A program made the position numbers and the translations under genes. Under the pieces are notes generated by a model that ran no database searches, was not told the origin of the DNA, and saw only the letters and a list, made by a program, of their open reading frames with translations. Shown in pieces: positions 14,037 through 52,949 of a stretch of 64,000 nt of DNA. Position 1 is the stretch's first letter; every line of letters starts with the position of its first letter. This DNA is from Pseudophaeobacter sp. GTDB lineage: Bacteria > Pseudomonadota > Alphaproteobacteria > Rhodobacterales > Rhodobacteraceae. The stretch is taken from contig JALUXC010000002.1 in the NCBI GenBank assembly GCA_027019165.1, positions 372,001 to 436,000 on the forward strand, written 5' to 3'.

Positions 14037-16202
14037 ATGTCCGGGTCGATTCAAGATACCTTCTTTGAGGAGTGTGAAGAGCTCCTTGAAGCAACGGACG
14101 AGGGTCTGACTGCCATCGAAGGTGGCAATCACGATCCGGAGGTGGTCAATGCCGTCTTCCGTGCCGTTCACTCGATCAAGGGTGGCGCCGGGGCATTTGG
14201 CTTGGACGAGTTGGTGGCGTTTGCCCACAGATTTGAGACCGTTTTTGACGAAGTGCGAGCCAATCGGCTGGAGCTTGAGCCCAAGCTGATACAGCTGCTT
14301 CTGCGCTCCAGCGATCACCTGTGCGACTTGGTTGCCACTGCCCGAGACGGCGGTGAGACCGACGAAGCGCACCACAACATGCTGATCGCCGCACTCGATG
14401 AGTATATCCCTGAAGAGGAAGAGGACCTCACCTTCGAACCGATGGGTCTCGGTGCTCCCGGCGGCTTTGCCCCGGCGGCGATCGATATCCCAGCCGCACC
14501 GACGGAAGAGACCTATCGCATCCGCTTCCATCCCATGAAAGAGATGTACGGAACCGGGAACGAGCCTTTCTTCCTGTTCCAGGCCCTGAAAGAACTCGGC
14601 GAACTCGAGATCAAGCTCGATGATACCGAACTTCCTGGCTTTGATGCGATCGATGTAGCGGAAAGCTATCTGGCTTGGGATCTGGTTCTGACCTCCACTG
14701 AACCTCGCGACAAGATTGAGGCCGTCTTCGAATTCGTGGAAGGCCTGTGCGAACTGTCGATCGAAGGGGATGGCGACGCCGAAGCGGATGCTGCGGCCCT
14801 CGAAGCACTGAATGCTGCATTTGGTGTTGCTCCGTCCGCAGAGGACGGGGACGCCGCTCCAGCCCCTTTTGACCAACCGGCCCCCGCTCCGGCGGCAGAT
14901 GCAGGCCCCGCACCCGCGGTGGACGCGTCTGCTGACAAGGCTCCCGCTCCCAAGGCAGACACCGCAAAAGCGGAGCAGCGCGGGGGTCCAAAGCCGACCT
15001 TGCGCGTAGAGCTTGAACGGGTGGACCGGCTCATCAACGCGGTTGGAGAGCTGATCATCAACCACTCGATGCTGGCTCAGCAGATTGCCAATCTTGATGT
15101 CGCCGACATGCGGGATGTGGAGACCGAACTGGAAGGGTTCAAGAATCTGGCCCGGGACATCCAGGAAGGCGTCATGTCGATCCGCGCACAGCCGGTCAAA
15201 CCGCTGTTCCAGCGTATGGCCCGGATTGTCCGCGAAGCCTCCAGCGCGACGGGCAAGACCTGTAAGCTTGTGACCGAGGGTGAAAACACCGAAGTCGACA
15301 AGACCGTCATCGAACGCCTGTCGGATCCGCTGACGCACATCCTGCGCAACGCGGTGGACCACGGGATCGAAAAGCCCGAGGACCGGGAAAGCGCCGGAAA
15401 GGGCAAGGTTGGTGAAATCAAGCTGACGGCCTCGCATCGCTCGGGAAGCGTCTGCATCGAGATCAAGGACGACGGTGCCGGTGTGAACCGACCACGCGTC
15501 AAACAGATCGCGATCGACAAGGGGCTGATCCCCGAGAACGCCGAGCTGACCGACAGCGAGATCGACAACCTGTTGTTCTTGCCAGGTTTCTCGACAGCCA
15601 AGGAAGTGTCAAACCTCTCGGGGCGCGGCGTGGGCATGGATGTGGTCAAGAACGCTGTGACCGGCCTTGGTGGCCGCATCAACATCTCGTCCGCGCCCGG
15701 CAAGGGCTCGACATTTACGATCATTCTACCACTGACCCTTGCGGTCATGGACGGAATGGTGGTGTCGGTTGCGGATCAGACCATGGTGGTTCCGATTACC
15801 TCCATCGTGGAAACGATGCGTGGCAGCGACGATATGATCAACAACTTGGGTGCCGATGGTACTCTGTTGTCGATCCGTGGGAACTTCGTGCCCGTCTGTG
15901 ACGTGGCCGGAGCGCTGGGCCTGGAAAAACAAGATGACCAACCGCCCGGCGTCTATCTGCTGGTCGAGACGGAAACCGGTCAGCGCAGTGCGCTTGCGGT
16001 GGATGATATCCATGACCAGCGCCAGGTGGTCATCAAGAGCCTGGATGGCGTGTGCGGGGAGATTGCCGGTGTGGCAGCCGCCACAATTCTTGGAGACGGC
16101 AAAATCGCCATGATCCTTGATCCGGAAAGCATTATCGCGGCCTCGCCCTCGGCAGCCGCCTTTGACACCGAGCGGAGAATGAACAATGCAGTCGCAAGTT
16201 GA
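14037..16202 (+). CDS. cheA: Chemotaxis histidine kinase CheA
   Basis: Central kinase that phosphorylates the CheY proteins in response to receptor state. The 721-residue protein has an HPt domain with phospho-acceptor His45 (FRAVHSIKGGAGAFG), a P2-like response-regulator docking region (about 155-245), a Pro/Ala-rich linker (about 270-320), a dimerisation helix pair, and an ATPase domain with N box (HILRNAVDHGIEKPEDRESA), G1 (EIKDDGAGV) and G2 (SGRGVGMDVVKNAV). A CheW-like regulatory domain follows from about 575. It starts one base after the cheY1 stop and overlaps cheW by 17 bases. Confidence 0.96.
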   Translation: MSGSIQDTFFEECEELLEATDEGLTAIEGGNHDPEVVNAVFRAVHSIKGGAGAFGLDELVAFAHRFETVFDEVRANRLELEPKLIQLLLRSSDHLCDLVATARDGGETDEAHHNMLIAALDEYIPEEEEDLTFEPMGLGAPGGFAPAAIDIPAAPTEETYRIRFHPMKEMYGTGNEPFFLFQALKELGELEIKLDDTELPGFDAIDVAESYLAWDLVLTSTEPRDKIEAVFEFVEGLCELSIEGDGDAEADAAALEALNAAFGVAPSAEDGDAAPAPFDQPAPAPAADAGPAPAVDASADKAPAPKADTAKAEQRGGPKPTLRVELERVDRLINAVGELIINHSMLAQQIANLDVADMRDVETELEGFKNLARDIQEGVMSIRAQPVKPLFQRMARIVREASSATGKTCKLVTEGENTEVDKTVIERLSDPLTHILRNAVDHGIEKPEDRESAGKGKVGEIKLTASHRSGSVCIEIKDDGAGVNRPRVKQIAIDKGLIPENAELTDSEIDNLLFLPGFSTAKEVSNLSGRGVGMDVVKNAVTGLGGRINISSAPGKGSTFTIILPLTLAVMDGMVVSVADQTMVVPITSIVETMRGSDDMINNLGADGTLLSIRGNFVPVCDVAGALGLEKQDDQPPGVYLLVETETGQRSALAVDDIHDQRQVVIKSLDGVCGEIAGVAAATILGDGKIAMILDPESIIAASPSAAAFDTERRMNNAVAS

Positions 16203-16674
16203 AGTCAAGCACGGCGATCAGGAAGTAAAACACGCCCAGTTCAGTGAATTTGTGAGCTTCACTGTGGCGGGCCAGGCTTTCTGTCTCAAAATCACTCAGA
16301 TCCGTGAGATCCGCCGGTGGTCCCCAGTCACGATCCTGCCGCACGCCCCGTCGGACGTGCTGGGCGTGATGAACCTGCGTGGAGCGGTGATCCCGATCTA
16401 CGATCTGTCCGCGCGTTTCGGCCTGCACCAGACCGAAGCCAGCGAGCGCAATGTCGTGATCGTCGTCGCGGTTGGTGGCAAACCGGTTGGCCTGCTGGCC
16501 GAGTCTGTCTCGGAAATCATCTCGATCAATCCGGATGACATCCAGGACACGCCTCCAGTCGATAGCCGCTACACCATGGAGTACATCCAGGGAATCATCT
16601 CGCACGATGAAACCATGGTGCGGATCATCAATCTGGATGCAGTTATTTCTGTGCCTGAACAGGTGATGATGTGA
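16186..16674 (+). CDS. cheW: Chemotaxis coupling protein CheW
   Basis: Couples receptors to CheA in the signalling array. The 162 residues form one CheW domain, with FVSFTVAGQAFCLKITQIREIRRW, VLGVMNLRGAVIPIYDLSARFG and VGLLAESVSEIISI as recognisable strands. Cytoplasmic. It overlaps cheA at its start and cheR by four bases at its end, so it is translated from the same message. Confidence 0.95.
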   Translation: MQSQVEVKHGDQEVKHAQFSEFVSFTVAGQAFCLKITQIREIRRWSPVTILPHAPSDVLGVMNLRGAVIPIYDLSARFGLHQTEASERNVVIVVAVGGKPVGLLAESVSEIISINPDDIQDTPPVDSRYTMEYIQGIISHDETMVRIINLDAVISVPEQVMM

Positions 16675-34374: not shown

Positions 34375-34687
34375 AGGCGGTCTCCGGTTACTATGTATGA
34401 GCGGCGCTTAACACTGCATGCAGGTATAGGCAACTGTTTTACTCAGGAAATTGAACTACTGTCGTTAAAAAGGGATCGGCAAATCGCACAATTGAAGGGG
34501 AACCGTGCAGAAACGTCCAAATGCGGCTGCTTTTTTGCCATTTTGCGCGCCTATGACGGAAGGCCAAAAGACACAGGATAGACGCGTCACCAGCCTGAAG
34601 CGCTGTAGTTAGACACGCAGAAGCGACCCGCAAACCAGAAGTGAAAAATATCGTCGCGCAGTCCGATTGCAAAAAGGTCCGGGCCCA
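34375..34687. other. Divergent intergenic region, iron-type ABC operon and Hint gene
   Basis: About 310 bases, visibly AT-richer than the flanking genes, that should hold the promoters of the ABC operon (minus) and the Hint gene (plus). I looked for Fur, Irr and RirA-like boxes and found none I could support. No gene-like frame has a ribosome site. Confidence 0.5.
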
Positions 34688-36109
34688 ATGGCCAATATTG
34701 ACATCCTTCGAAGTGATGGAACGCCGCGCGAAACCGACTATGGCGTTCGCTCTGATACATCGTCGCGCGGGGTCGACCTTGAAGGGGCGCAGATCACCGC
34801 GACCTATGCCGATGGCACCACCGAGACGCTGACGTGGAAAGCCCTTGACCCCTACACAACGGGCGGAGCCAGCGGCACGGACATCAAAATGTTCTTTGGG
34901 TACAGCTGGCACGAGCTGACAACCACAAAGACACTTGCCTCGCTCAGTATCGACCTGTCGCCGGCGAACTCGGTCTTTGATACCACGACGGCGATGGGGG
35001 ACGATCCCAGCGCCCCCTCGACGCCGGGATCCCTCAATGGCTTTCCTTTCAAGCTGGCGCCGGACTACGCAGATACCACAGGCGATATCACAGCGACCTA
35101 TTCAAACATCGTGAACCTGTCCGGCAACGCTCCGGTTGGCGATCTCTACACGACAATGACGATCGATTTTTCCGGGCTGCCCGGCGGTGGGCTGTTGGGG
35201 CGGCTTGACTGGAATTCCGACATCGACACGATGACCGGCCCATTCAAAGACACGCTCGATGCGGTCGATGACGTCCTGACGATTTCCGGCGACGGGTCCG
35301 AGCAGTTGAACATTCTGGACAACGACCAACATAGCGATGGGACCGAGCTTTCAATCACCCAGATCAACGGTCAAGCAATTGCGCCCGGCGGATCGGTGAC
35401 CCTGCCCAGCGGCGAGGTTGTGACACTCAACGCCGACGGCACGCTGTCGATCACCAATGACAGCACCGTCAATGAGATCAACACGTTTTCCTACACGGTC
35501 GACGATGGGCAAGGCCACACGGATGTCGGGACCGTGACGGTCAAGACCAATGTCAAAGTGCCGCCCTGTTTTGTCGCCGGGACGCTCATCCGCACCCCGA
35601 AAGGCGACGTTGCGGTTGAGGATCTGGAGATCGGAGACCTTGTTCTCACCCGCGATCACGGCCCTCAACGCCTGCGCTGGATCGGACGCTGTCACCGCCG
35701 GGCTGAAGGGGTCAACGCGCCGATCACCTTTGCCGCAAATGCAATCGGGGTCCATGGTCCCATCTCGGTCTCTCCAAATCACCGGGTTCTGCTGCGGTCA
35801 GAAATGGCAGAGCTGCTTTTTGGTCAGCGCGAAGTGCTGGTCAAGGCCAAGCATCTGTTGAACGACCAGACCATCCGCATCGATGCCCATGGCGGTTTGG
35901 TGACCTATGTGCACCTCCTGTTCGACCAGCACGAGATCGTCATCTGTGACGGCTTTGCCAGCGAAAGCTATCACCCCGGCGCCGAGACTTTGGACGCTTT
36001 CGATCCCGAGACCCGCGCCGAAGTTCTGGAACTGATGGCTGAGATGGAAACCTACGGCCCAACCGCGCGGCTTGAGATCAAGGCCCACGAAAGTCGGCTT
36101 TTGACCTGA
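34688..36109 (+). CDS. Secreted Hint-domain protein with VCBS-like domain
   Basis: A 473-residue protein in three parts: an N-terminal beta-rich region of unknown type (1-185), one VCBS/cadherin-like repeat (about 190-285; DAVDDVLTISGDGSEQLNILDND to FSYTVDDGQGHTDVGTVTV), and a Hint domain from Cys294 (PPCFVAGTLIRTPKGDVAVEDLEIGD) with His365 in SPNHRVLL. Hint domains can cleave their own backbone at the cysteine. Such proteins are common in Roseobacter-group genomes and are thought to leave by type I secretion, having no classical signal peptide. It stands alone. The start MANIDIL is preferred over a codon seven residues upstream. Confidence 0.85.
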   Translation: MANIDILRSDGTPRETDYGVRSDTSSRGVDLEGAQITATYADGTTETLTWKALDPYTTGGASGTDIKMFFGYSWHELTTTKTLASLSIDLSPANSVFDTTTAMGDDPSAPSTPGSLNGFPFKLAPDYADTTGDITATYSNIVNLSGNAPVGDLYTTMTIDFSGLPGGGLLGRLDWNSDIDTMTGPFKDTLDAVDDVLTISGDGSEQLNILDNDQHSDGTELSITQINGQAIAPGGSVTLPSGEVVTLNADGTLSITNDSTVNEINTFSYTVDDGQGHTDVGTVTVKTNVKVPPCFVAGTLIRTPKGDVAVEDLEIGDLVLTRDHGPQRLRWIGRCHRRAEGVNAPITFAANAIGVHGPISVSPNHRVLLRSEMAELLFGQREVLVKAKHLLNDQTIRIDAHGGLVTYVHLLFDQHEIVICDGFASESYHPGAETLDAFDPETRAEVLELMAEMETYGPTARLEIKAHESRLLT

Positions 36110-43778: not shown

Positions 43779-44684
43779 TCAGCGCGGCTGCGCCAGCGGG
43801 TTTGAAAAATAGTCCTTGAAGTACGCATGGAGAATGGAAACGGGCCGGTCGAATTCCGCATCCTTGCGCCAGGCGAGCCCGACATCCATCGACGGGATCT
43901 CCATCTCGACCGGCACCGTCCCGATGCGCTTGCCTTCCAGCGACCAGGGCCGGTAGACCATGTCCGACAGCACCGTGATGCCCTGCCCGTTGGCCACCAT
44001 CGAGCGCACCGCCTCAACCGATGAGGTGCGCAACCGGACCTTTGGCTGCAGATTGGCCAGCCCCCAGTACTTCATGGTGGTGTGCGCGGCCTCGTCCACG
44101 GTCAGCATGATGTAATCTTCGCGAGCGATCTCTTCGAGAGAGGCCTTGCCCTGCCGTTGCAGCGGGTGGTTGTTGGGCACCCACAGACGCCGGTTCGAGC
44201 TGAGCAGAGTCTCGCTTTCCAGCGCCGGGTTGTTGATGTTCGAGGTCAGCACCACGGCCATGTCGAACCGGTTGTTCAAGAGCCCCTCTTCGATGCTTTC
44301 CCTGTTCAATTCACTCAGCCGGATCTCAAGGTTCGGGTGCAGTTTTGCGATGCGGTCCAGATGATAGGGGAGGAAATAGCCCAGAACCGTGTAGGTGGCC
44401 GCAAGGGAGATGACACCGCTCACAGTCGACCGGCGCCGCGTCAGGTTCTTGGCCTCATCCACGCGCTGCAAAATATCGCGGGTAGAGGCCAGAAACTCCC
44501 GCCCGGCATCGGTCAGTTCCATCCCATGCGCGGCGCGGACAAAGAGGGAGACGCTCAACTCGGCCTCAAGATCCCGGATAGCGCCGGTGACCGATGACTG
44601 CGAGATCGACAGCATGTTGGCGGCGCGGCTGACCTGACCGGTTTCAGCGGTTGCAAGGAAATACTTCAGATGGCGGAGATTCAC
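43779..44684 (-). CDS. LysR family transcriptional regulator
   Basis: Regulator of 301 residues. The N-terminal helix-turn-helix is LKYFLATAETGQVSRAANMLSISQSSVTGAIRDLEAELSVSLFVR, followed by the two-lobed effector domain. The start is GTG with AAGG upstream. It is divergent from the pxpA-containing operon, with a T-N11-A-type inverted repeat between them, so it is the likely activator of that pathway, with the pathway substrate or an intermediate as co-inducer. Confidence 0.93.
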   Translation of the reverse strand: MNLRHLKYFLATAETGQVSRAANMLSISQSSVTGAIRDLEAELSVSLFVRAAHGMELTDAGREFLASTRDILQRVDEAKNLTRRRSTVSGVISLAATYTVLGYFLPYHLDRIAKLHPNLEIRLSELNRESIEEGLLNNRFDMAVVLTSNINNPALESETLLSSNRRLWVPNNHPLQRQGKASLEEIAREDYIMLTVDEAAHTTMKYWGLANLQPKVRLRTSSVEAVRSMVANGQGITVLSDMVYRPWSLEGKRIGTVPVEMEIPSMDVGLAWRKDAEFDRPVSILHAYFKDYFSNPLAQPR

Positions 44685-44713: not shown

Positions 44714-44734
44714 ATTATCGAAAATTCCGATAAT
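44714..44734. promoter_or_regulatory. LysR-type binding site
   Basis: ATTATCG (44714-44720) and CGATAAT (44728-44734) form a perfect inverted repeat with a 7-base spacer, containing the T-N11-A pattern of LysR boxes. It lies 30 bases upstream of the regulator start; another CGATAA half-site is at 44704-44709. Confidence 0.65.
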
Positions 44735-44905
44735 GGTCGCCCAAAGTCAAGGCACCATGAAAAAACGTAAATTTATCAATGGGAAAATTTCTCCTCTTCC
44801 AAGAGCGTTATCCATTTTTCCAATATTCAACGCACAAAAATTAGAATTTTACACCTCACATACCCCTGAGTGATGCTGTTGGAAACACGAACAGGGACTT
44901 GCGGA

Positions 44906-45688
44906 ATGCGTGATTTAATCGATTTGAACTGCGACCTCGGAGAAGGTTTTGGCCATTGGTCCCTCGGCGAAGCCCCTGATGAGTTGCTGATGCCTTTGAT
45001 CAGCTCCGCCAATATTGCCGCCGGGTTTCATGCGGGCGATCCGAACTCAATGGACCGCGTCGTGAAACTGGCGCAGCAGCATGGTGTCGGCCTTGGGGCG
45101 CACCCCGGTTTTCGCGATCTGCAGGGGTTTGGCCGCCGCCACATTCAGACGCGTGCCGAAGAGCTGGTGAATGACATCGTCTATCAGGTTGGCGCGATCC
45201 GCGAATTCGGGCGCCGTCACGGGATTGCCCTGCAGCACGTAAAACCACATGGCGCGCTCTACATGGAGGCAGCCATCAACGAAGAGCTGTCGGAACTGAT
45301 GATCGACACGCTGCGCACCACCAGCCGCGATGCGATCATCTTTTGCATGAGCATCTCCAAGACCTATGAGGTTGCCCGCCGCGCAGGCCAGCCTGTGGTG
45401 CGCGAGTTCTATGCCGACCGCGATTACGACGACAGCGGATCGATCGTCTTTGCGCGCCAGGTCGGCCGGCACGACCCCGATGCAGTAGCGGCAAAATGCG
45501 TGCGTGCCTGCAAAGAGGGCGTTGTGCGCACTGTTACGGGCACTGACATCGAGATCGAGTTCGAATCCATCTGTTTTCACTCGGACACACCCGGCGCGCT
45601 GGAAAATGGCGAGGCCATTCGTCAGGCTTTGCAGGCCGCAGGCATCAAGATCGCTCCCGCAGCGACCGTATTGGAAAAATGCGCCTGA
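44906..45688 (+). CDS. pxpA: 5-oxoprolinase subunit A / LamB-YcsF family protein
   Basis: Cytoplasmic hydrolase-like protein of 260 residues. It opens [14 protein letters not shown], the YcsF hallmark, followed by [18 protein letters not shown] and [15 protein letters not shown], and later HVKPHGALY; these acidic and histidine residues form the family active site. In PxpABC it hydrolyses activated 5-oxoproline. Here it heads an operon that also encodes a biotin carboxylase and its carrier, so the substrate may be another lactam or amide. The start at 44906 is preferred over an ATG 12 codons upstream because the family begins here. Confidence 0.9.
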
Positions 45689-45734
45689 CGCCTTGGCGGC
45701 ACTCAGGCAAACCGACTGGCACTAGGAGGTCGAC

Positions 45735-45971
45735 ATGGCACAGATTCAATCCCCGCTTCCCGGCACGTTCTACCGGCAGCCTTCCCCGGAAGAGCCTCCC
45801 TTCAAATCCGCAGGCGACGCAGTTGCGGTTGGCGACACCATCGGTCTGATCGAAGTGATGAAGACCTTCATCCAGGTCAACGCTGAAGATCCCGGAACCT
45901 TCAAAGCCTATGTTGCCGAAGACGGCGCGCCGGTCATGGCTGGTGATGTTCTGGCAGAGCTGGACGGCTGA
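45735..45971 (+). CDS. Biotin carboxyl carrier protein (single biotinyl domain)
   Basis: A 78-residue protein made of just one biotinyl domain. The biotin-attachment lysine is Lys43 in GLIEVMKTF, which has T instead of the second M of the common MKM motif. It lacks the long N-terminal region of AccB, so it is unlikely to be the housekeeping fatty-acid carrier. It carries carboxybiotin from the biotin carboxylase (next gene, three bases on) to a carboxyltransferase, probably the PxpB/PxpC pair. AGGAGGTCGAC before the ATG is a strong ribosome site. Confidence 0.92.
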   Translation: MAQIQSPLPGTFYRQPSPEEPPFKSAGDAVAVGDTIGLIEVMKTFIQVNAEDPGTFKAYVAEDGAPVMAGDVLAELDG

Positions 45972-45974
45972 GCG

Positions 45975-47357
45975 ATGAAGATCAAACGCCTTCTCATCGC
46001 GAACCGGGGCGAGATTGCCGTGCGCATCATCCGCGCTGCAAAGGCGCTTGGCATTCACACGATCCAGGCGCACTCAGAGGCCGATGCCGATATGCTGGCC
46101 GTCAAACTGGCGGATGAGGCGATCTGCATCGGACCCGCTCCGTCACGGGAGTCCTACCTTGATATCCAAAAGGTCGTCTCAGCGGCCCAGGGCACCGGCG
46201 CAGATGCGGTGCATCCGGGCTATGGCTTTCTGTCGGAAAGCCCCGCTTTTGCCCGTGCGCTGGAAAGCGCGGGGATCATCTATGTCGGCCCATCCGCCGA
46301 CACCATCGAACGTATGGGCGACAAGGTGGCCGCCCGCATTGCCGCCGAGGCCGCGGGCGTGCCGGTGGTGCCCGGCTCCAAAGGGCGGATCGCCTCGGTC
46401 GACGAGGCCGCAGCGGTTGCTACCGAAATCGGCTACCCGGTGATGATCAAGGCCGCTGCGGGCGGCGATGGTCGCGGCATTCGCATCGCCAACGATGAAG
46501 CGGCTCTGCGCAAACTCGCCCCCATGGCCCAATCCGAAGCCGAAGCGGCCTTTGGCGATGGCGGGCTGTATCTGGAACGTGCGGTACAATCCCCGCGCCA
46601 TATCGAGGTACAGATCCTGGGCGACGGCAGCGATGCCATCCACTGCTACGAGCGGGAATGCTCGCTGCAGCGCCGCCGCCAAAAGGTCTGGGAAGAGGCT
46701 GGCGCGGTCTGTCTGGACGATGAGACCCGCGAAAGCCTCTGCGCCTCGGCTGTGGCGCTGGCGAAATCGGTTCAGTACCGCGGCGCGGGGACGCTCGAAT
46801 ATCTTTATGATGAAGCCCGGAATGAATTCTACTTCATCGAGATGAATACCCGCATTCAGGTGGAACACCCGATTTCAGAGATGATCACCGGCGTCGATCT
46901 GGTGCAGGAAATGATCCGGGTCTGCGCCGGTGAGCCGCTGCAATACAGCCAGTCAGACATCAAGGCGACCGGACATGCCATCGAGGTGCGCATCTGCGCC
47001 GAAGATCCCTTCATGCAGTTCCTGCCTTTCCCCGGCAAAGTTCAGACCCTGATCGAACCCACGGGCGACGGCATCCGCTTTGATCACTTTCTGTATGAAG
47101 GCTACCAGATCCCGCCCTTCTATGACTCGCTGCTGGGCAAGCTGATCGTCCACGCGGACACGCGTGCGGCGGCCATCGACAAGCTGCGCGAGGCCCTGCG
47201 GGACCTCCGGCTCGAAGGGCTCAAAACCACGGCACCGCTTCACCTGGCATTGGCGGATGATCCGGACGTTCAGGTGGGCGCCTTCCACACTCAATGGCTC
47301 GAACCGTGGTTGGATGCGGGCAATCTCGCTGCCACAGCAAAAGGGGACGCAGCATGA
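45975..47357 (+). CDS. Biotin carboxylase
   Basis: ATP-grasp enzyme of 460 residues that carboxylates biotin on the carrier protein using bicarbonate and ATP. It opens KIKRLLIANRGEIAVRIIRAAKALG; the ATP-binding glycine loop is KAAAGGDGRGIRI; EMNTRIQVEHPISEMITGVDLV is the catalytic core with the Glu, Arg and Glu needed for carboxylation; RICAEDP follows. It overlaps pxpB by four bases. No accA or accD lies in the window, which supports a dedicated role with PxpB/PxpC as the carboxyltransferase. Confidence 0.94.
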   Translation: MKIKRLLIANRGEIAVRIIRAAKALGIHTIQAHSEADADMLAVKLADEAICIGPAPSRESYLDIQKVVSAAQGTGADAVHPGYGFLSESPAFARALESAGIIYVGPSADTIERMGDKVAARIAAEAAGVPVVPGSKGRIASVDEAAAVATEIGYPVMIKAAAGGDGRGIRIANDEAALRKLAPMAQSEAEAAFGDGGLYLERAVQSPRHIEVQILGDGSDAIHCYERECSLQRRRQKVWEEAGAVCLDDETRESLCASAVALAKSVQYRGAGTLEYLYDEARNEFYFIEMNTRIQVEHPISEMITGVDLVQEMIRVCAGEPLQYSQSDIKATGHAIEVRICAEDPFMQFLPFPGKVQTLIEPTGDGIRFDHFLYEGYQIPPFYDSLLGKLIVHADTRAAAIDKLREALRDLRLEGLKTTAPLHLALADDPDVQVGAFHTQWLEPWLDAGNLAATAKGDAA

Positions 47358-48229
47358 AGACCAGATACACATATGGCGGCGATGAACACATCTATGTGGA
47401 AATCGGCGAGGAGATGTCTCTTGAGGCCTTTTTTGTCGCCCTGTCGATGAGCAACGCCGTGCGCGATGCAAACCTGCCCGGCGTGACCGAAATCTGCCCG
47501 GCGAACTCCTCCTTTCAGGTGCGCTTTGACCCGGATGTCACCGACCCCGAAGAGATGATGGCGGCCATCAAGCAGCTTGAGGCATTCTCTGACCAGGCTG
47601 AAAAACGCCTGTCTACGCGGATCATCGAAATCCCGGTCTTCTATCAGGACCCCTGGACCCATGAGACGTTGATGCGGTTTCGCGAGCGTCATCAGGATCC
47701 AAGCGGAACCGATCTCGACTATGCGGCGCGGATCAACGGATATGACAGCGTCGAGGCCTTTATCGAGGCCCATCACAGCGCGCCCTGGTTCGTCTCGATG
47801 GTCGGTTTTGTGGCTGGGCTGCCCTTCCTTTATCAACTGGTGGAGCGCGAAAAGCAGCTTCAAGTGCCAAAATACCTGCGCCCCCGAACTGATACGCCAA
47901 AGCTGACCGTGGGCTATGGTGGCTGTTTTTCCTGCATCTACTCGGTGCGCGGCGCGGGCGGCTATCAGATGTTCGGCATCACGCCGATGCCGATCTACGA
48001 CCCGGAACAGAAGGTGTCCTACCTGAAAGACTTCATGGTCTTCTTCAAACCCGGCGACATCGTGAAATGGAAGCCGATCGACCGCACCGAATATGACCGG
48101 ATCGAACAAGAGGTCGAAAACGGCACCTATCAGCCGCGTATCGCCGAGGTTGAATTCGATCTGGAAGCCTTCAACGCAGATATCGCCGGGACCAACGCCA
48201 AACTGATGGAGGCGCTCAATGACGCTTGA
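47354..48229 (+). CDS. pxpB: 5-oxoprolinase/carboxyltransferase subunit B (KipI/AHS1)
   Basis: A 291-residue cyclophilin-like-fold protein of the AHS1 family. Recognisable parts are TRIIEIPVFYQDPWTHETLMRF, SGTDLDYAARINGYDSVEAFIEAHHS, FVAGLPFLYQL and RTDTPKLTVGYGGCFSCIYSVRGAGGYQMFG, including the P-R-x-x-x-P...VGxGG core shared with the carboxyltransferase half of urea carboxylase. It pairs with subunit C. Length is greater than the B. subtilis KipI (about 240), through an N-terminal extension. It overlaps both neighbours. Confidence 0.9.
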   Translation: MKTRYTYGGDEHIYVEIGEEMSLEAFFVALSMSNAVRDANLPGVTEICPANSSFQVRFDPDVTDPEEMMAAIKQLEAFSDQAEKRLSTRIIEIPVFYQDPWTHETLMRFRERHQDPSGTDLDYAARINGYDSVEAFIEAHHSAPWFVSMVGFVAGLPFLYQLVEREKQLQVPKYLRPRTDTPKLTVGYGGCFSCIYSVRGAGGYQMFGITPMPIYDPEQKVSYLKDFMVFFKPGDIVKWKPIDRTEYDRIEQEVENGTYQPRIAEVEFDLEAFNADIAGTNAKLMEALNDA

Positions 48230-49190
48230 GATTGTCAAACCCGGCCTTGCGACCTCCGTTCAGGATCTGGGCCGTCCGGGGTACTTTCACCTTGGCATCC
48301 CCGAAGGCGGCGCGATGGATCGTTTTGCCCTGCGTGCGGCGAATATGCTGGTCGGCAACCCCGAAGATGCCGCCTGCCTTGAGGCCGTCTTTATGGGGCC
48401 TGAGATCAAGTTCACCGCAGATACCACAGTGGCCGTGACCGGCGGCGAAATGCCCATCATGGTGGACGGAGAGCAGCAGCAGACCTGGACCTCCTTTGCG
48501 GTCAAGGCCGGTCAGACCCTGTCCTTCGGCTTTCTGAAAAGCGGCGCGCGGATCTACATTGCGGTCAGCGGCGGTATCGATACCCCGCCAGACCTAGGCA
48601 GCCGGTCAACCTATCCCATCGGTGCCCTTGGCGGGATCGAAGGGCGCGCAGTGGCCGCGGGCGACGTGCTTCCCATTGGCGCAGGCACAGCCGCGTCTGC
48701 GGGCCGGAGCGTTCCGGCAGATCTGCGCCGGGGCCCCTCCAATCCGGCAGAGCTGCGGGTTCTGCCCGGTCTTTACTGGCACCGCCTGACAGAGGCCGCG
48801 CAGGCGAGCTTTTTCGACGACACCTGGACCGTAGCGCCTGAGGCCGACCGCATGGGCTATCGCTTCAAAGGCGGCCGTCCGCTTGAGCTGGTCGACCGTG
48901 AGCCGCCCTTTGGCGCAGGCTCAGATCCCTCGAACATCGTGGATGGCTGCTATTCCTATGGATCGATCCAGGTGCCCGGCGGCACCGAGCCGATCATCCT
49001 GCACCGCGATGCGGTTTCAGGCGGAGGATACTTTACCCTTGGTGCCATAATCTCGGCCGATATGGATCTGATTGGGCAACTACAGCCAAACACCCAGGTG
49101 AAGTTTGTCCGAGTTGAAATGGCAGAGGCGCTGAAAGCCCGCGCCCAGCGCAAGGCCATGCTTCAGAAATTACGAGAAGAGCTCATGTAA
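48219..49190 (+). CDS. pxpC: 5-oxoprolinase/carboxyltransferase subunit C (KipA/AHS2)
   Basis: A 323-residue AHS2-family protein and partner of subunit B. It opens IVKPGLATSVQDLGRPGYFHLGIPEGGAMDRFALRAANMLVGNPEDAACLE, the signature of the family, with GARIYIAVSGGIDTPPDLGSRSTY and MGYRFKGG further on. Together with BCCP, biotin carboxylase and subunit B it recreates, as separate genes, the domain set of urea carboxylase. A GGAGGCGC site inside pxpB precedes its ATG. The binding-protein gene follows after 73 bases. Confidence 0.93.
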   Translation: MTLEIVKPGLATSVQDLGRPGYFHLGIPEGGAMDRFALRAANMLVGNPEDAACLEAVFMGPEIKFTADTTVAVTGGEMPIMVDGEQQQTWTSFAVKAGQTLSFGFLKSGARIYIAVSGGIDTPPDLGSRSTYPIGALGGIEGRAVAAGDVLPIGAGTAASAGRSVPADLRRGPSNPAELRVLPGLYWHRLTEAAQASFFDDTWTVAPEADRMGYRFKGGRPLELVDREPPFGAGSDPSNIVDGCYSYGSIQVPGGTEPIILHRDAVSGGGYFTLGAIISADMDLIGQLQPNTQVKFVRVEMAEALKARAQRKAMLQKLREELM

Positions 49191-49263
49191 GGGCTCCACC
49201 CACCCCCAGCAAAACAGCGGAAAACCGCACTGGACTGATGTAACTGACAAGGAGGTCAGAACA

Positions 49264-50337
49264 ATGAAACTCACCCTAACGACTGCGGCAACGCTGGCGC
49301 TTGCCGCAACCCTACCCGGCCTCGCCATGGCCGAGGACAGCTGGTTCCCCTACGAGGCCGAAGAGGTCACACCCGCCTTTTCCGCAGACGGAACCGTCAG
49401 CGCGATCACCTACACGCCGCTTGAGAAAGCCGAAAAACCCTGGAACATCTGCGTGTCCTTTCCGCATATGAAAGACGCCTACTGGCTGGGTGTTGACTAT
49501 GGCGTGGTAGACGAAGCCGAACGCCTGGGCGTCAAGATGAACCTGGTCGAGGCAGGCGGGTACACCGAACTGGCCAAGCAGATCAGCCAGATCGAGGACT
49601 GTGTTGCCTCGGGCGCGGATGCGGTGGTTCTGGGCGCCATCTCTTATGAGGGGTTGAACAACGTCATCGCCGAAGTCGCCGGCAAGGGCGTGCCGGTGAT
49701 CGATGTGATCAACGGTGTGTCCTCCAGCGATATTGCGGCCAAATCCCTCGTCTCGTTCAAGACCATGGGCTTTGAAACAGGTCGCTATCTTGCAGAGAAA
49801 CACCCAGCGGGCTCTGAGCCGGTCAAGGTTGGCTGGTTCCCCGGTCCGGCTGGCGCAGGCTGGGTCGAGGCCGCCCACGCTGGTTTCATGGAGGCCGTTG
49901 AAGGCTCGGCCGTAGAAGTGCTGGAGCCACGCTTTGGTGACACCGGCAAGGAGGCGCAGCTGAAACTGGTCGAAGACGTGCTGCAGGCCACCCCCGAGGT
50001 GCGCTATCTTGCGGGCACCGCCGTCACCGCCGAGGCGGCGCAGGGTCTGATCCGCGAACGCGGCCTGCAGGGTGAGGTCGACCTTCTGGCCTTTTACATG
50101 ACACCCGGCGTCTATTCCGGGATCAAGCGCGGTTTCATCCTAGCTGCTCCGGCTGACAGTATGGTCATCCAGGGCCGCATCGCCATGGACCAGGCCGTGC
50201 GCATTCTCGAAGGCAAGGACTACGTCAAACACGTCGGCCCCAAGATCTTTGTGGTGGATCCAGACAATATCAATGACGTCGCCCGCGAAAGCATCCTCCC
50301 GCCGGAAGGCTTCAAGCCGGTCTTCTCGGTGAACTGA
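49264..50337 (+). CDS. Sugar-type (TorT/RbsB-like) ABC substrate-binding protein
   Basis: Periplasmic binding protein of 357 residues with a signal peptide ending GLAMAEDS. The fold is that of the ribose/autoinducer type: WNICVSFPHMKDAYWLGVDYGVVDEAERLGVKMNLVEAGGYTELAKQISQIEDC, then ADAVVLGAISYEGLN. Overall it looks most like TorT-family periplasmic proteins. AAGGAGGT, a full Shine-Dalgarno match, precedes the ATG. Its place directly after pxpC suggests that it binds the substrate of the biotin-dependent pathway. A hairpin follows the gene. Confidence 0.88.
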   Translation: MKLTLTTAATLALAATLPGLAMAEDSWFPYEAEEVTPAFSADGTVSAITYTPLEKAEKPWNICVSFPHMKDAYWLGVDYGVVDEAERLGVKMNLVEAGGYTELAKQISQIEDCVASGADAVVLGAISYEGLNNVIAEVAGKGVPVIDVINGVSSSDIAAKSLVSFKTMGFETGRYLAEKHPAGSEPVKVGWFPGPAGAGWVEAAHAGFMEAVEGSAVEVLEPRFGDTGKEAQLKLVEDVLQATPEVRYLAGTAVTAEAAQGLIRERGLQGEVDLLAFYMTPGVYSGIKRGFILAAPADSMVIQGRIAMDQAVRILEGKDYVKHVGPKIFVVDPDNINDVARESILPPEGFKPVFSVN

Positions 50338-50373
50338 GCGCAGTCTCAAAAGGCAAGAGACCAAAAGCAGCAT

Positions 50374-50397
50374 GGTCAGGCGGAGCCTCGCCTGACC
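50374..50397 (+). promoter_or_regulatory. Intercistronic hairpin after the TorT-like gene
   Basis: GGTCAGGCG (50374-50382) and CGCCTGACC (50389-50397) form a perfect 9-bp stem with a 6-base loop, 36 bases after the binding-protein stop. It is followed by TCACCCAC, not a U-tract. Confidence 0.7.
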
Positions 50398-50430
50398 TCA
50401 CCCACAGGGCGCAGCGGTCGGAAAGATGAC

Positions 50431-51942
50431 ATGGACGACACTCCTCTCATAAAAACAGCGGCTTTGACAAAAAGCTACCCGGGCGTTCTGGCGCTCGATC
50501 ATGTGGATTTCGACCTCAAGGCGGGCGAGGTGCATGTGCTCTTTGGCGAGAACGGTGCCGGAAAATCCACGCTGATTTCCATGCTGGCCGGGGCGAACAG
50601 GCCCACCGGGGGGCAGATCCTCTTGAATGGCCAGGAGGTGCACCTGGCCAACGTTGCCGATGCACAACGCCGAGGCATTTATACGGTCTTTCAGGAATTT
50701 TCGCTGATCCCCACCCTGACCGTGGCCGAGAATATCTTTCTGGGATGGGAGCCGATGATAGGCCCCTTCGTGAACCATGCGGCCATGCGCAAGCGCGCCG
50801 CAGAGATGTTTGCAGAGCTGGATTTTCCGATTGACCCCAATGCCATCACGGCCAACCTGTCACGGGCGCAAAAGCAGATGGTGGAAATCACCAAGGCCTT
50901 TCACGGCGATCTGTCGGTGCTGATCCTGGATGAGCCCACGGCATCGCTGACGGACCGCGAAGTCGACCACCTGTTCGGCTTTATCGAAACGCTCAAAGCG
51001 CGCGGCGTCGGCATCATCTATATCTCGCACCGGATGCAGGAATTCGCCCGCATTGCCGACCGCGTGACCGTGCTGCGCGATGGCGGTAAGATCGGCACTG
51101 TTGCCATGGCGGATACCGATCAGGACGCGCTGGTCGAGATGATGACCGGTCGCGCCATCACCGAGATCTACCCCACAATCGAACGGCGGACCGGTGAGAC
51201 CCTGCTCAGGGCTGAGAACGTCAGCGCTCCCGGAGTTTACGGTGCCAATCTTGAAATCAAGGCAGGTGAGGTTTTGGGCATCGCCGGTCTGGTCGGATGC
51301 GGCAAATCCCGCCTTGCCCGTGCGCTGATGGGCCTTGGCGCAAAAACCTCGGGGCGGGTCACGCTCAAAGAGCAGGACATCACCCGCACCAGCACCCAAA
51401 GCATCATTCGATCAGGCATGTACTACCTGTCCCCGGACCGCAAAGCCGAAGGGTTGGATCTGGCAAAGACAGCCGATGACAACCTCGCTGTGAACCTCGT
51501 GATGGGCGGGGGCACAACCACCGGTGCCGGTTTTGTCGACTGGGGCAAAGTCCGGCGCAGAACCGCCGAGATCGCCAACCATGTGGAACTGCATGACGGC
51601 TACAGGCGCAAACTGGTTTCTCAGCTCTCGGGCGGCAATCAGCAAAAGGTTCTGTTTGGCCGCTGCTTTGGTCAGGAGGCCGATATCATCATCCTGGATG
51701 AGCCGACCGTGGGCGTCGATATGGGCACCCGTGCGGCCTTGTACCTGTTGATCAAAGAGCTGGCAGAAGCAGGCAAGGCGGTCGTGGTGATCTCCTCCGA
51801 TCTGCCTGAAGTCCTTCACCTGTCACACCGGATGATCGTTCTGGCGCATGGCCATATCACGGCCGAGCTGGAAGGGGACGATCTGACCGAAGAGCAAACC
51901 CTGAAATACTTTTTCGAAGAAAACACCGGAGCCACGGCATGA
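50431..51942 (+). CDS. Sugar-type ABC transporter ATP-binding protein (RbsA family)
   Basis: Double ATPase of 503 residues. The first half has Walker A GENGAGKSTLI, signature LSRAQKQMVEI and Walker B VLILDEPTASL; the second half has GLVGCGKSRLA, LSGGNQQKVLFGR and IIILDEPTVGVD. The second domain shows the degenerate Walker A usual for the RbsA/MglA family. It drives import with the TorT-like binding protein and the permease that overlaps it by four bases. A GGAAAG site precedes the ATG. Confidence 0.94.
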   Translation: MDDTPLIKTAALTKSYPGVLALDHVDFDLKAGEVHVLFGENGAGKSTLISMLAGANRPTGGQILLNGQEVHLANVADAQRRGIYTVFQEFSLIPTLTVAENIFLGWEPMIGPFVNHAAMRKRAAEMFAELDFPIDPNAITANLSRAQKQMVEITKAFHGDLSVLILDEPTASLTDREVDHLFGFIETLKARGVGIIYISHRMQEFARIADRVTVLRDGGKIGTVAMADTDQDALVEMMTGRAITEIYPTIERRTGETLLRAENVSAPGVYGANLEIKAGEVLGIAGLVGCGKSRLARALMGLGAKTSGRVTLKEQDITRTSTQSIIRSGMYYLSPDRKAEGLDLAKTADDNLAVNLVMGGGTTTGAGFVDWGKVRRRTAEIANHVELHDGYRRKLVSQLSGGNQQKVLFGRCFGQEADIIILDEPTVGVDMGTRAALYLLIKELAEAGKAVVVISSDLPEVLHLSHRMIVLAHGHITAELEGDDLTEEQTLKYFFEENTGATA

Positions 51943-52949
51943 CCGCAGACCAATCCCAATCCCGCGCGCTGGAGCCGATCAAACGCCTTTTTGTCAAAGT
52001 CGGCGTGCTCCCGTTTTTCCTGCTGGGCGCGCTGATCGTCTTCACGCTTTTGTCACCAAAATTCCTGACCGGGCAGAATCTGGTCAATGTGGCGCGGCAG
52101 TCGGTCTATCTGGTCCTCGTCTCGCTGGGGCAGATGCTGGTCCTGATCTCGGGAGGTTTTGACCTGTCGGTCGGCACGGCCATTGCGCTCACATCGGTGG
52201 TGTCGGCCCTGTCCATGGTTTGGCTCTCTGGGGTCTTTCCCGATGCAATCTGGCTGGCGATTGCCCTTGGCGCCTTTATCGGGTTTGGCGCGGCGCTGAT
52301 AGTGGGGCTGATCAATGGCATTGGCGTCGCCTATTTTGAGGTTTCCCCCTTTATCATGACACTGGGCGTCTCGTCAGTTGGCGCAGGGCTTGCACTGTTC
52401 CTGACCGGCGGCGTGCCGGTGTCGGGCATCCCCTTTGCCTTTGCCGATACATTCGGCTTTGGCAGGGTCTGGGGTATTCCGGTGCCCGTGGTGATCGCCG
52501 CCCTGTGCATCGTTGTGATGTGGGTGTTCATGTCCCGCACCCGTCTTGGCACACAGATTTATGCGGTCGGCGGCAATATCAAGGCCGCGCATCTGTCTGC
52601 AATCAACACCAAACGCACACTCATGCTGACCTATGCGATCTGTGCTCTGATTGCCTCGCTCACCGGGCTGCTGCTGACCGCGCGCGTCGAAAGCGGAGAG
52701 GCCAACCTTGGCGGCACCATCGCGCTTGAATCCATCGCCGCCTGCGTCATTGCCGGAGTGTCTCTGCGCGGCGGGATTGGCCGGGTCGAGAATGTGGTTC
52801 TGGGCGGTTTTTTCATCGTGCTGGTCCAGAACGGGATGAACCTTGCGCAGGTCAGCTCTTACATGCAGATGGTGCTTTTGGGCGTCTTGCTGATCCTCGC
52901 GGTTATCTTTGACCAGATGCGCTACCGGATGATGATGGGGGGGCGCTGA
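51939..52949 (+). CDS. Sugar-type ABC transporter permease (RbsC family)
   Basis: Inner-membrane permease of 336 residues with about eight to ten hydrophobic segments. RbsC landmarks are VLISGGFDLSVGTAIALTSVVSAL, EVSPFIMTLGVSSVGAGLALFLTGG and RTRLGTQIYAVGGNIKAAHLSAINTKRTLMLTYAICALIASLTGLLLTARV. Last gene of the LysR-controlled operon. It converges with the aldo/keto reductase gene 30 bases on; no terminator hairpin is evident between them. Confidence 0.93.
   Translation: MTADQSQSRALEPIKRLFVKVGVLPFFLLGALIVFTLLSPKFLTGQNLVNVARQSVYLVLVSLGQMLVLISGGFDLSVGTAIALTSVVSALSMVWLSGVFPDAIWLAIALGAFIGFGAALIVGLINGIGVAYFEVSPFIMTLGVSSVGAGLALFLTGGVPVSGIPFAFADTFGFGRVWGIPVPVVIAALCIVVMWVFMSRTRLGTQIYAVGGNIKAAHLSAINTKRTLMLTYAICALIASLTGLLLTARVESGEANLGGTIALESIAACVIAGVSLRGGIGRVENVVLGGFFIVLVQNGMNLAQVSSYMQMVLLGVLLILAVIFDQMRYRMMMGGR

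Follow-up and report, generated by a model that had tools for sequence, protein, structure and literature searches.

Introduction

Why would a bacterium keep a biotin carboxylase and a biotin carrier among the genes of a PxpABC-type enzyme? The question is raised by a gene cluster in 64,000 nucleotides of Pseudophaeobacter sp. DNA (GenBank assembly GCA_027019165.1, contig JALUXC010000002.1, positions 372,001 to 436,000 of the forward strand), termed the window, in whose numbering coordinates are given here. Five genes on the plus strand form the core of the cluster and encode PxpA (44906..45688), a biotin carboxyl carrier protein (BCCP; 45735..45971), a biotin carboxylase (BC; 45975..47357), PxpB (47354..48229), and PxpC (48219..49190). 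They are followed by the genes of an ATP-binding cassette (ABC) importer.

The cluster resembles a urea carboxylase in separate parts, combined with a ring-opening hydrolase and an importer, through which a lactam is probably used for nitrogen and carbon. We consider it fairly likely that BC, BCCP, PxpB, and PxpC, together with PxpA and the importer, constitute a biotin-driven lactam-opening system. The importer would take a small cyclic amide into the cell, and BC, with ATP and bicarbonate, would carboxylate the biotin carried by BCCP. PxpB and PxpC, as a split carboxyltransferase of the urea carboxylase type with Lys173 of PxpB as general base, would then place the CO2 on the ring nitrogen of the lactam, and PxpA would open the N-carboxylated, activated ring. 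The resulting N-carboxy amino acid would lose CO2 to give an omega-amino acid, which could be consumed by transamination and oxidation. We infer these steps, the complex, and the substrate class from gene families, gene neighbours, and a predicted structure.

Parts of this arrangement are already in print. Split urea-carboxylase-like genes were noted in a 2011 study that gives no functional data (PMC3199775). The five gene kinds occur in one operon of S. aureus, where accB and accC are listed under fatty acid synthesis (PMC11315280), and a Lactiplantibacillus paper interprets a surplus BC/BCCP pair as one more copy of acetyl-CoA carboxylase (PMC12427679). NCBI annotation already names PxpC-like proteins “biotin-dependent carboxyltransferase family protein”. 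A literature search found no paper linking BC and BCCP to PxpABC function or to lactam opening, with most subscription papers outside its reach.

PxpB is of the urea carboxylase type

On the basis of its sequence and predicted structure, window PxpB is of the urea carboxylase type. The protein, with 291 residues from the ATG at 47354, belongs to CT_C_D and supplies carboxyltransferase subdomains C and D. Its score against the urea carboxylase model TIGR02712 (122.6 bits) exceeds that against TIGR00370, the 5-oxoprolinase model for PxpB, which it misses (75.7 bits, cut-off 145.55). PxpC, with 323 residues, supplies carboxyltransferase subdomains A and B (CT_A_B, 300.8 bits); it meets the broad model TIGR00724 (279 bits, cut-off 230.2) and misses the 5-oxoprolinase equivalog NF045499 (219.2 bits, cut-off 500). 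These and the following family calls come from a Pfam and NCBIfam scan of nine window proteins, from the LysR regulator through the importer permease.

Lys173 of window PxpB (codon 47870-47872) aligns, counting along the alignment, with K1605 of Kluyveromyces lactis urea amidolyase. K1605 probably acts as general base in carboxyl transfer, and the K1605A variant has a kcat of 79.7 versus 836 per min (PMC5770610). Residue 173 was surveyed in 154 PxpB rows, 146 of them different. The window clade has lysine at this column throughout (62 rows), as do six urea-carboxylase-like rows (so named from a frame length of about 1200 residues) and 19 of the 22 members of a third group, the other three having leucine. 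The remaining 64 rows, including the second PxpB of the same genome, have arginine. Three copies with a gap at the column (L012, the first copy of L063, and the second copy of L168) were left out of the tree. A separate 25-row alignment of lysine-type PxpB has Lys173 invariant. In a quick tree, which is unrooted and has long branches whose joins may be false, every arginine row falls on one side of a branch with a support of 100 and window PxpB lies on the side of urea carboxylase. Third-group copies are numerous in four genomes of one family (G569, G467, G655, and G726; loci L089-L092 and L094-L101), with four to six PxpB matches each, and three of these copies have leucine at the Lys173 column.

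The predicted fold agrees with the lysine. An AlphaFold2 model of window PxpB (mean pLDDT 90.4) superposes on urea carboxylase 3va7 with a Z of 27.2 and an rmsd of 2.3, aligning 277 of 291 residues across model residues 1-280, and matches the carboxyltransferase C/D fold including its C-terminal extension. Other solved PxpB-like proteins align over 196 to 215 residues with a Z of 16 to 20. Those checked at the 173 position (2phc, 9yx5, and the KipI fragment 2zp2) have arginine.

The cluster shares with urea carboxylase and urea amidolyase (K. lactis 3va7, 5i8i) a BC, a BCCP, a CT_A_B plus CT_C_D carboxyltransferase, and the equivalent of Lys1605. Urea carboxylase (TIGR02712) is a single chain of about 1200 residues carrying BC, carboxyltransferase, and BCCP, whereas the window cluster has four separate proteins, importer genes alongside, and PxpA instead of allophanate hydrolase. 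PxpA belongs to the LamB/YcsF family (LamB_YcsF, 295.8 bits), as in PxpABC 5-oxoprolinase, and is the proposed opener of the activated ring. No amidase family was found among the nine scanned proteins, PxpA standing in the place of allophanate hydrolase, and a split urea carboxylase proper was rejected on that ground.

Biotin components and the rest of the genome

BCCP, of 78 residues, is a Biotin_lipoyl protein (PRK07051, 112.8 bits, cut-off 87) with its biotin-acceptor lysine at Lys43 (codon 45861-45863). This lysine, in the motif E-[V/I/A]-M-K, is present in all 60 sequences compared, those of the window, 57 lysine-type loci, and loci L195 and L201. BC, of 460 residues, has the biotin carboxylase domains (PRK12833, 726.4 bits, cut-off 686) and aligns over its full length with solved biotin carboxylases. 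Genes for biotin supply also accompany some relatives: BioY (eight loci, Pfam-confirmed in two) or BioB (L163) lies near 9 of 57 lysine-type loci versus 0 of 33 arginine-type loci (Fisher p 0.024). All eight BioY neighbours occur with the PxpA subtype other than that of the window.

NCBIfam labels both BC and BCCP as parts of acetyl-CoA carboxylase. The earlier note on this DNA had observed that no accA or accD is present to claim the BC, which holds for the cluster and not for the genome. An accC of 452 residues adjoins an accB frame off the window's contig, so that the cluster BC is not the only one of the genome, and AccA-like and AccD-like frames (named from the profile part matched) lie on other contigs; the idea of a sole BC was rejected accordingly. 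The genome has six Carboxyl_trans matches, all on contigs other than the window's, which leaves the cluster BC and BCCP without an AccA/AccD partner beside them.

Only two CT_C_D matches occur in the genome, window PxpB and a second PxpB on contig C3. Since these account for both matches, urea carboxylase is presumably absent. The second PxpABC (L069, contig C3) has neither BC nor BCCP alongside. Upstream of it are two aldehyde-dehydrogenase-like matches, one of them 54% identical to the succinate-semialdehyde dehydrogenase (SSADH) of Ruegeria sp. TM1040, and a hydantoinase-A-like match lies about 10 kb away.

Several findings are consistent with BC, BCCP, and a urea-carboxylase-like PxpBC belonging together: Lys173 and the fold that PxpB has in common with urea carboxylase, the acceptor lysine of BCCP, the BioY and BioB genes near some relatives, and acetyl-CoA carboxylase genes elsewhere in the genome. 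They support the proposal, made in the earlier note and still the best account of these genes, that BC, BCCP, and PxpBC would carboxylate the substrate nitrogen and PxpA would hydrolyse the product. PxpA would hold the position that allophanate hydrolase has in urea amidolyase.

Conservation of the five-gene core

Loci are called lysine-type when their PxpB is of the window kind and arginine-type when it is of the other kind. The close PxpB clade is present in 20 of 385 alphaproteobacterial genomes, including the window's own, with the others 66 to 80% identical, and within the same family in 23 of 248, again including its own, at an identity of at least 63%. The 57 lysine-type loci comprise 19 from the alphaproteobacterial search, 20 from the same-family search, 12 chosen by their short BCCP, and 6 hand-picked plasmid records. 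The first two sets, 39 loci, came from PxpB searches blind to neighbours; among the 22 other genomes of the same-family search, G386 was already in the set and G960, at a contig edge, was left out. When the six plasmid loci (L159-L164) were chosen, the hits for five of them already listed a biotin carboxylase. BCCP selection gave 14 loci, two of them outside the 57: L151, a third-group arrangement with BC and BCCP, and L152, with BCCP and BC and no PxpB seen. The 33 arginine-type comparison loci were hand-picked from PxpB/CT_C_D search results, and L205-L211 stand outside both counts. Automatic frames among the relatives' neighbours are often antisense, and only separately confirmed families were used.

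The core (pxpA, BCCP, BC, pxpB, and pxpC) is complete in 55 of the 57 lysine-type loci, on which ground a chance neighbourhood was rejected. Loci found by PxpB alone account for 38 of 39 (18/19 and 20/20), those chosen by BCCP for 11 of 12, and the plasmids for all six. BC and BCCP lie within 8 kb of PxpB in 55/57 lysine-type loci versus 2/33 arginine-type loci (L195 and L201), and PxpA is present in 57/57. One of the two incomplete cores, L141, looks like an assembly break because, partway through BC, its contig turns into a run of G/C, and another contig carries the remainder of a matching BC. More distant lysine-type PxpB proteins occur in the haloarchaeon Natrialba magadii (50% identity) and in Rhodococcus jostii RHA1 (43%), each with BCCP, BC, and PxpA no more than about 9 kb away.

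PxpA itself falls into two subtypes over the 57 loci, 27 with at least 58% identity to that of the window and 30 below 55%, and their neighbours differ. PxpB is 61 to 85% identical across both subtypes. At L168, the lysine-type cluster has beside it (about 14600-16650) a second set of frames, distinct from the first, with pxpA-like and pxpB-like members and a partly matched pxpC-like one.

The substrate

What, then, is carboxylated? The neighbours of some relatives point to a small lactam, contrary to the “bulky” substrate that the earlier note had entertained. Of the 57 lysine-type loci, 15 have hydantoinase A/B genes nearby, versus none of the 33 arginine-type loci (p 0.0007), and 11 of these 15 are of one close CapAB-like type. 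The A subunit of L074, the one scanned, matches caprolactamase CapA in NCBIfam (1244.7, cut-off 1000), and the others of that type are taken as CapA-like from their 69 to 75% identity to it. Ten of the 11 CapAB-like neighbours occur with the PxpA subtype other than that of the window.

Caprolactamase CapAB opens its lactam with ATP and bicarbonate, both of which it needs (PMC8453981, PMC6061476), and is in this respect like the proposed system. It differs in being built from the Hydantoinase_A and Hydantoinase_B families without biotin, and neither subunit was found among the nine cluster proteins scanned. The caprolactamase gene cluster includes an omega-aminotransferase and a semialdehyde dehydrogenase (PMC6061476). 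Genes for gamma-aminobutyrate (GABA) transaminase and SSADH lie upstream of and divergent from the cluster in L160, and downstream of the permease in L169, L170, L172, and, by annotation, L210. L160 is from Ruegeria sp. TM1040, whose five core proteins share 72 to 82% identity with those of the window. The four of these loci that are among the 57 have the PxpA subtype of the window.

On balance, the substrate is fairly likely some small lactam other than 5-oxoproline. 2-Pyrrolidone is the lactam of GABA, and we tentatively favour it, yielding GABA, as the single best candidate. This choice is made with reserve because the best match in the window's own genome stays under the cut-off both for GABA transaminase (226.8 of 506.65 bits) and for CapA (514.3 of 1000 bits), though an SSADH is present (707.9, cut-off 646.35). 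Other neighbours of lysine-type clusters include isochorismatase-like genes, adjoining L080 (cut at the contig end), L081, and L083, the latter two of which also have glutamine-synthetase-like and N-formylglutamate-amidohydrolase-like genes.

Alternative explanations

Besides the GABA transaminase and CapA scores under cut-off, several observations weigh against a biotin-driven lactam-opening system. PxpBC from other bacteria is assumed to act by phosphorylating 5-oxoproline (PMC13274462), and the caprolactamase authors consider three mechanisms, one of which carboxylates the lactam on its lactim oxygen and not on nitrogen (PMC8453981). Arginine-type PxpB has BC and BCCP alongside in L195, L201, and L207 (Lactiplantibacillus plasmid). 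Ten lysine rows have neither BC nor BCCP within 8 kb, nine of them in the third group and the tenth L206, whose BC is about 9 kb off. The idea that lysine marks biotin linkage without exception was rejected because of these three arginine-type loci and the third-group copies without a nearby BC; arginine-type L204 also has a piece of BC at the locus edge, beyond the 8-kb limit. L082, the second incomplete core, has pxpA, BCCP, pxpB, and pxpC without a BC between BCCP and pxpB, and the best other BC of its genome is only 50% identical. In the PxpA alignment, no residue distinguishes lysine-type from arginine-type loci, the invariant residues being common to both. GABA transaminase and SSADH are near 4/57 lysine-type versus 0/33 arginine-type loci, which is not significant (Fisher p 0.29) and was rejected as statistical proof. 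L169, L170, L172, and L210 are moreover close relatives in the tree, and the cassette thus amounts to roughly two independent cases.

The same carboxylation route could instead serve a biotin-assisted 5-oxoprolinase that converts 5-oxoproline to glutamate, which we regard as unlikely while granting it some weight. The cluster is like prokaryotic 5-oxoprolinase PxpABC in its PxpA, PxpB, and PxpC families and in their grouping, NCBIfam names the first gene 5-oxoprolinase subunit PxpA, and its invariant residues are those of arginine-type loci. BC and BCCP also occur in S. aureus operons annotated as 5-oxoprolinase (PMC11315280) and on a Lactiplantibacillus plasmid. It differs from PxpABC in the added BC and BCCP, in PxpB and PxpC scores that fall under the curated cut-offs, and in having lysine, not arginine, at position 173. 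Further arguments against 5-oxoproline are the second PxpABC of the genome, the lactam and GABA genes that neighbour some relatives, and the tree, in which PxpB falls on the side of urea carboxylase. The higher score and the fold match to urea carboxylase would suit a split enzyme that carboxylates urea, guanidine, or some other open-chain amide. Such a substrate is very improbable given PxpA in every lysine-type locus and the lack of an amidase family in the nine scanned proteins, the relatives not having been searched for amidases. A spare half of acetyl-CoA carboxylase that sits in the operon by chance, with PxpABC independent of BC and BCCP, is a little less remote and still quite unlikely. 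It draws on the NCBIfam labels, on the absence of BC from L082, on the S. aureus accB and accC assigned to fatty acid synthesis, and on the Lp. pentosus pair read as a further acetyl-CoA carboxylase copy (PMC12427679). It is opposed by the other acetyl-CoA carboxylase genes of the genome, by an association kept in 55/57 loci and seen within about 9 kb in Natrialba and Rhodococcus, and by a PxpB whose lysine and fold match urea carboxylase. The six-gene S. aureus operon (with pxpB, pxpC, pxpA, accB, and accC) is similar to the window cluster in containing the same five gene kinds and differs in being described as 5-oxoprolinase plus acetyl-CoA carboxylase genes (PMC11315280).

A wider possibility is that biotin carboxylation is the general PxpABC route, with lysine-type clusters having their own BC and BCCP and arginine-type ones, classical 5-oxoprolinases included, borrowing the housekeeping biotin carboxylase. 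We find this improbable, though the Mycobacterium smegmatis entry PDB 9yx5 hints at it; the phosphorylation of 5-oxoproline assumed for PxpBC would then be wrong. The entry is titled a long-chain acyl-CoA carboxylase complex with MSMEG_0435-MSMEG_0436 bound, and, as in the proposed system, it brings a PxpBC pair together with a BC-BCCP subunit, AccA3. The pair differs from that of the window in having arginine at the Lys173 position and in relying on the shared AccA3 without a BC or BCCP of its own. Together with L195, L201, and L207, the entry complicates a simple split into biotin-dependent lysine-type and biotin-free arginine-type enzymes, and it makes the statement that PxpABC needs no biotin, taken as known in the earlier note, less firm.

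If the window cluster is indeed a biotin-driven lactam-opening system, biotin-borne CO2 placed on a ring nitrogen and followed by hydrolysis would join the ATP-dependent ring-opening enzymes known or assumed so far as a further means of cleaving unstrained amide rings. It would account for the BC/BCCP copies that two papers took as acetyl-CoA carboxylase parts, offer a testable lysine/arginine rule separating two kinds of PxpB, and point to genes that may degrade 2-pyrrolidone and related lactams in Rhodobacterales, Rhizobiaceae, and other groups. How the common prokaryotic 5-oxoprolinase works would also become directly testable.

Importer, regulator, and intergenic region

Downstream of the core, also on the plus strand, are a TorT-like periplasmic binding protein (49264..50337), a two-domain sugar-type ABC ATPase with two ABC_tran stretches (50431..51942), and an RbsC-like permease (BPD_transp_2; 51939..52949), which constitute a CUT2-type (sugar) ABC set. 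The binding protein meets PRK10936 (421.8 bits, cut-off 200) and falls below the narrower TorT model TIGR02955 (289.9 bits versus a cut-off of 310). A divergent LysR-type regulator (LysR_substrate plus HTH_1) lies on the minus strand at 43779..44684. The run from pxpA to the importer with its divergent LysR is thus as the earlier note read it, with all genes in place and their families borne out by Pfam and NCBIfam. The genes are closely spaced as described there, and “mostly overlapping” overstates the case: overlaps occur at three of seven junctions (BC/pxpB, 4 bp; pxpB/pxpC, 11 bp; ATPase/permease, 4 bp), and the other four are gaps of 3 to 93 bp. The importer trio is found together within 8 kb of 28 of the 57 lysine-type clusters. 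A relative of the window LysR (at least 38% identity) is present in 49 of the 57 loci.

The region between LysR and pxpA has two operator-like palindromes that follow the pattern TATCGGAWWWTCCGATA. The distal one, TATCGAAAATTCCGATA (44716..44732), matches the degenerate motif without mismatch and is the only such match in the genome, with 0.07 matches expected in the window. The weaker, proximal one (44809..44825) lies 97 bp before pxpA and agrees at 13 of 17 positions. Sites like the distal one occur roughly 190-205 bp upstream of pxpA in several relatives, and most of the 17 relatives compared have a proximal-type site at about the same distance. In a comparison with 300 shuffles for each of 18 regions (the window and these 17 relatives), 0 to 6 shuffles equal the best site in 16 regions, 11 do so in L071, and 176 in L077, a test that overstates the motif because the motif was read from these same regions. 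The genome has just one further near match, with one mismatch, between another LysR-like frame and a P450-looking frame; it was taken as chance and rejected as a second regulon member. Promoter and terminator scans gave no more matches than shuffled sequence. Elsewhere in the window, a frame at 34667-36106 carries a Hint_2 domain together with bacterial-Ig/cadherin-like domains.

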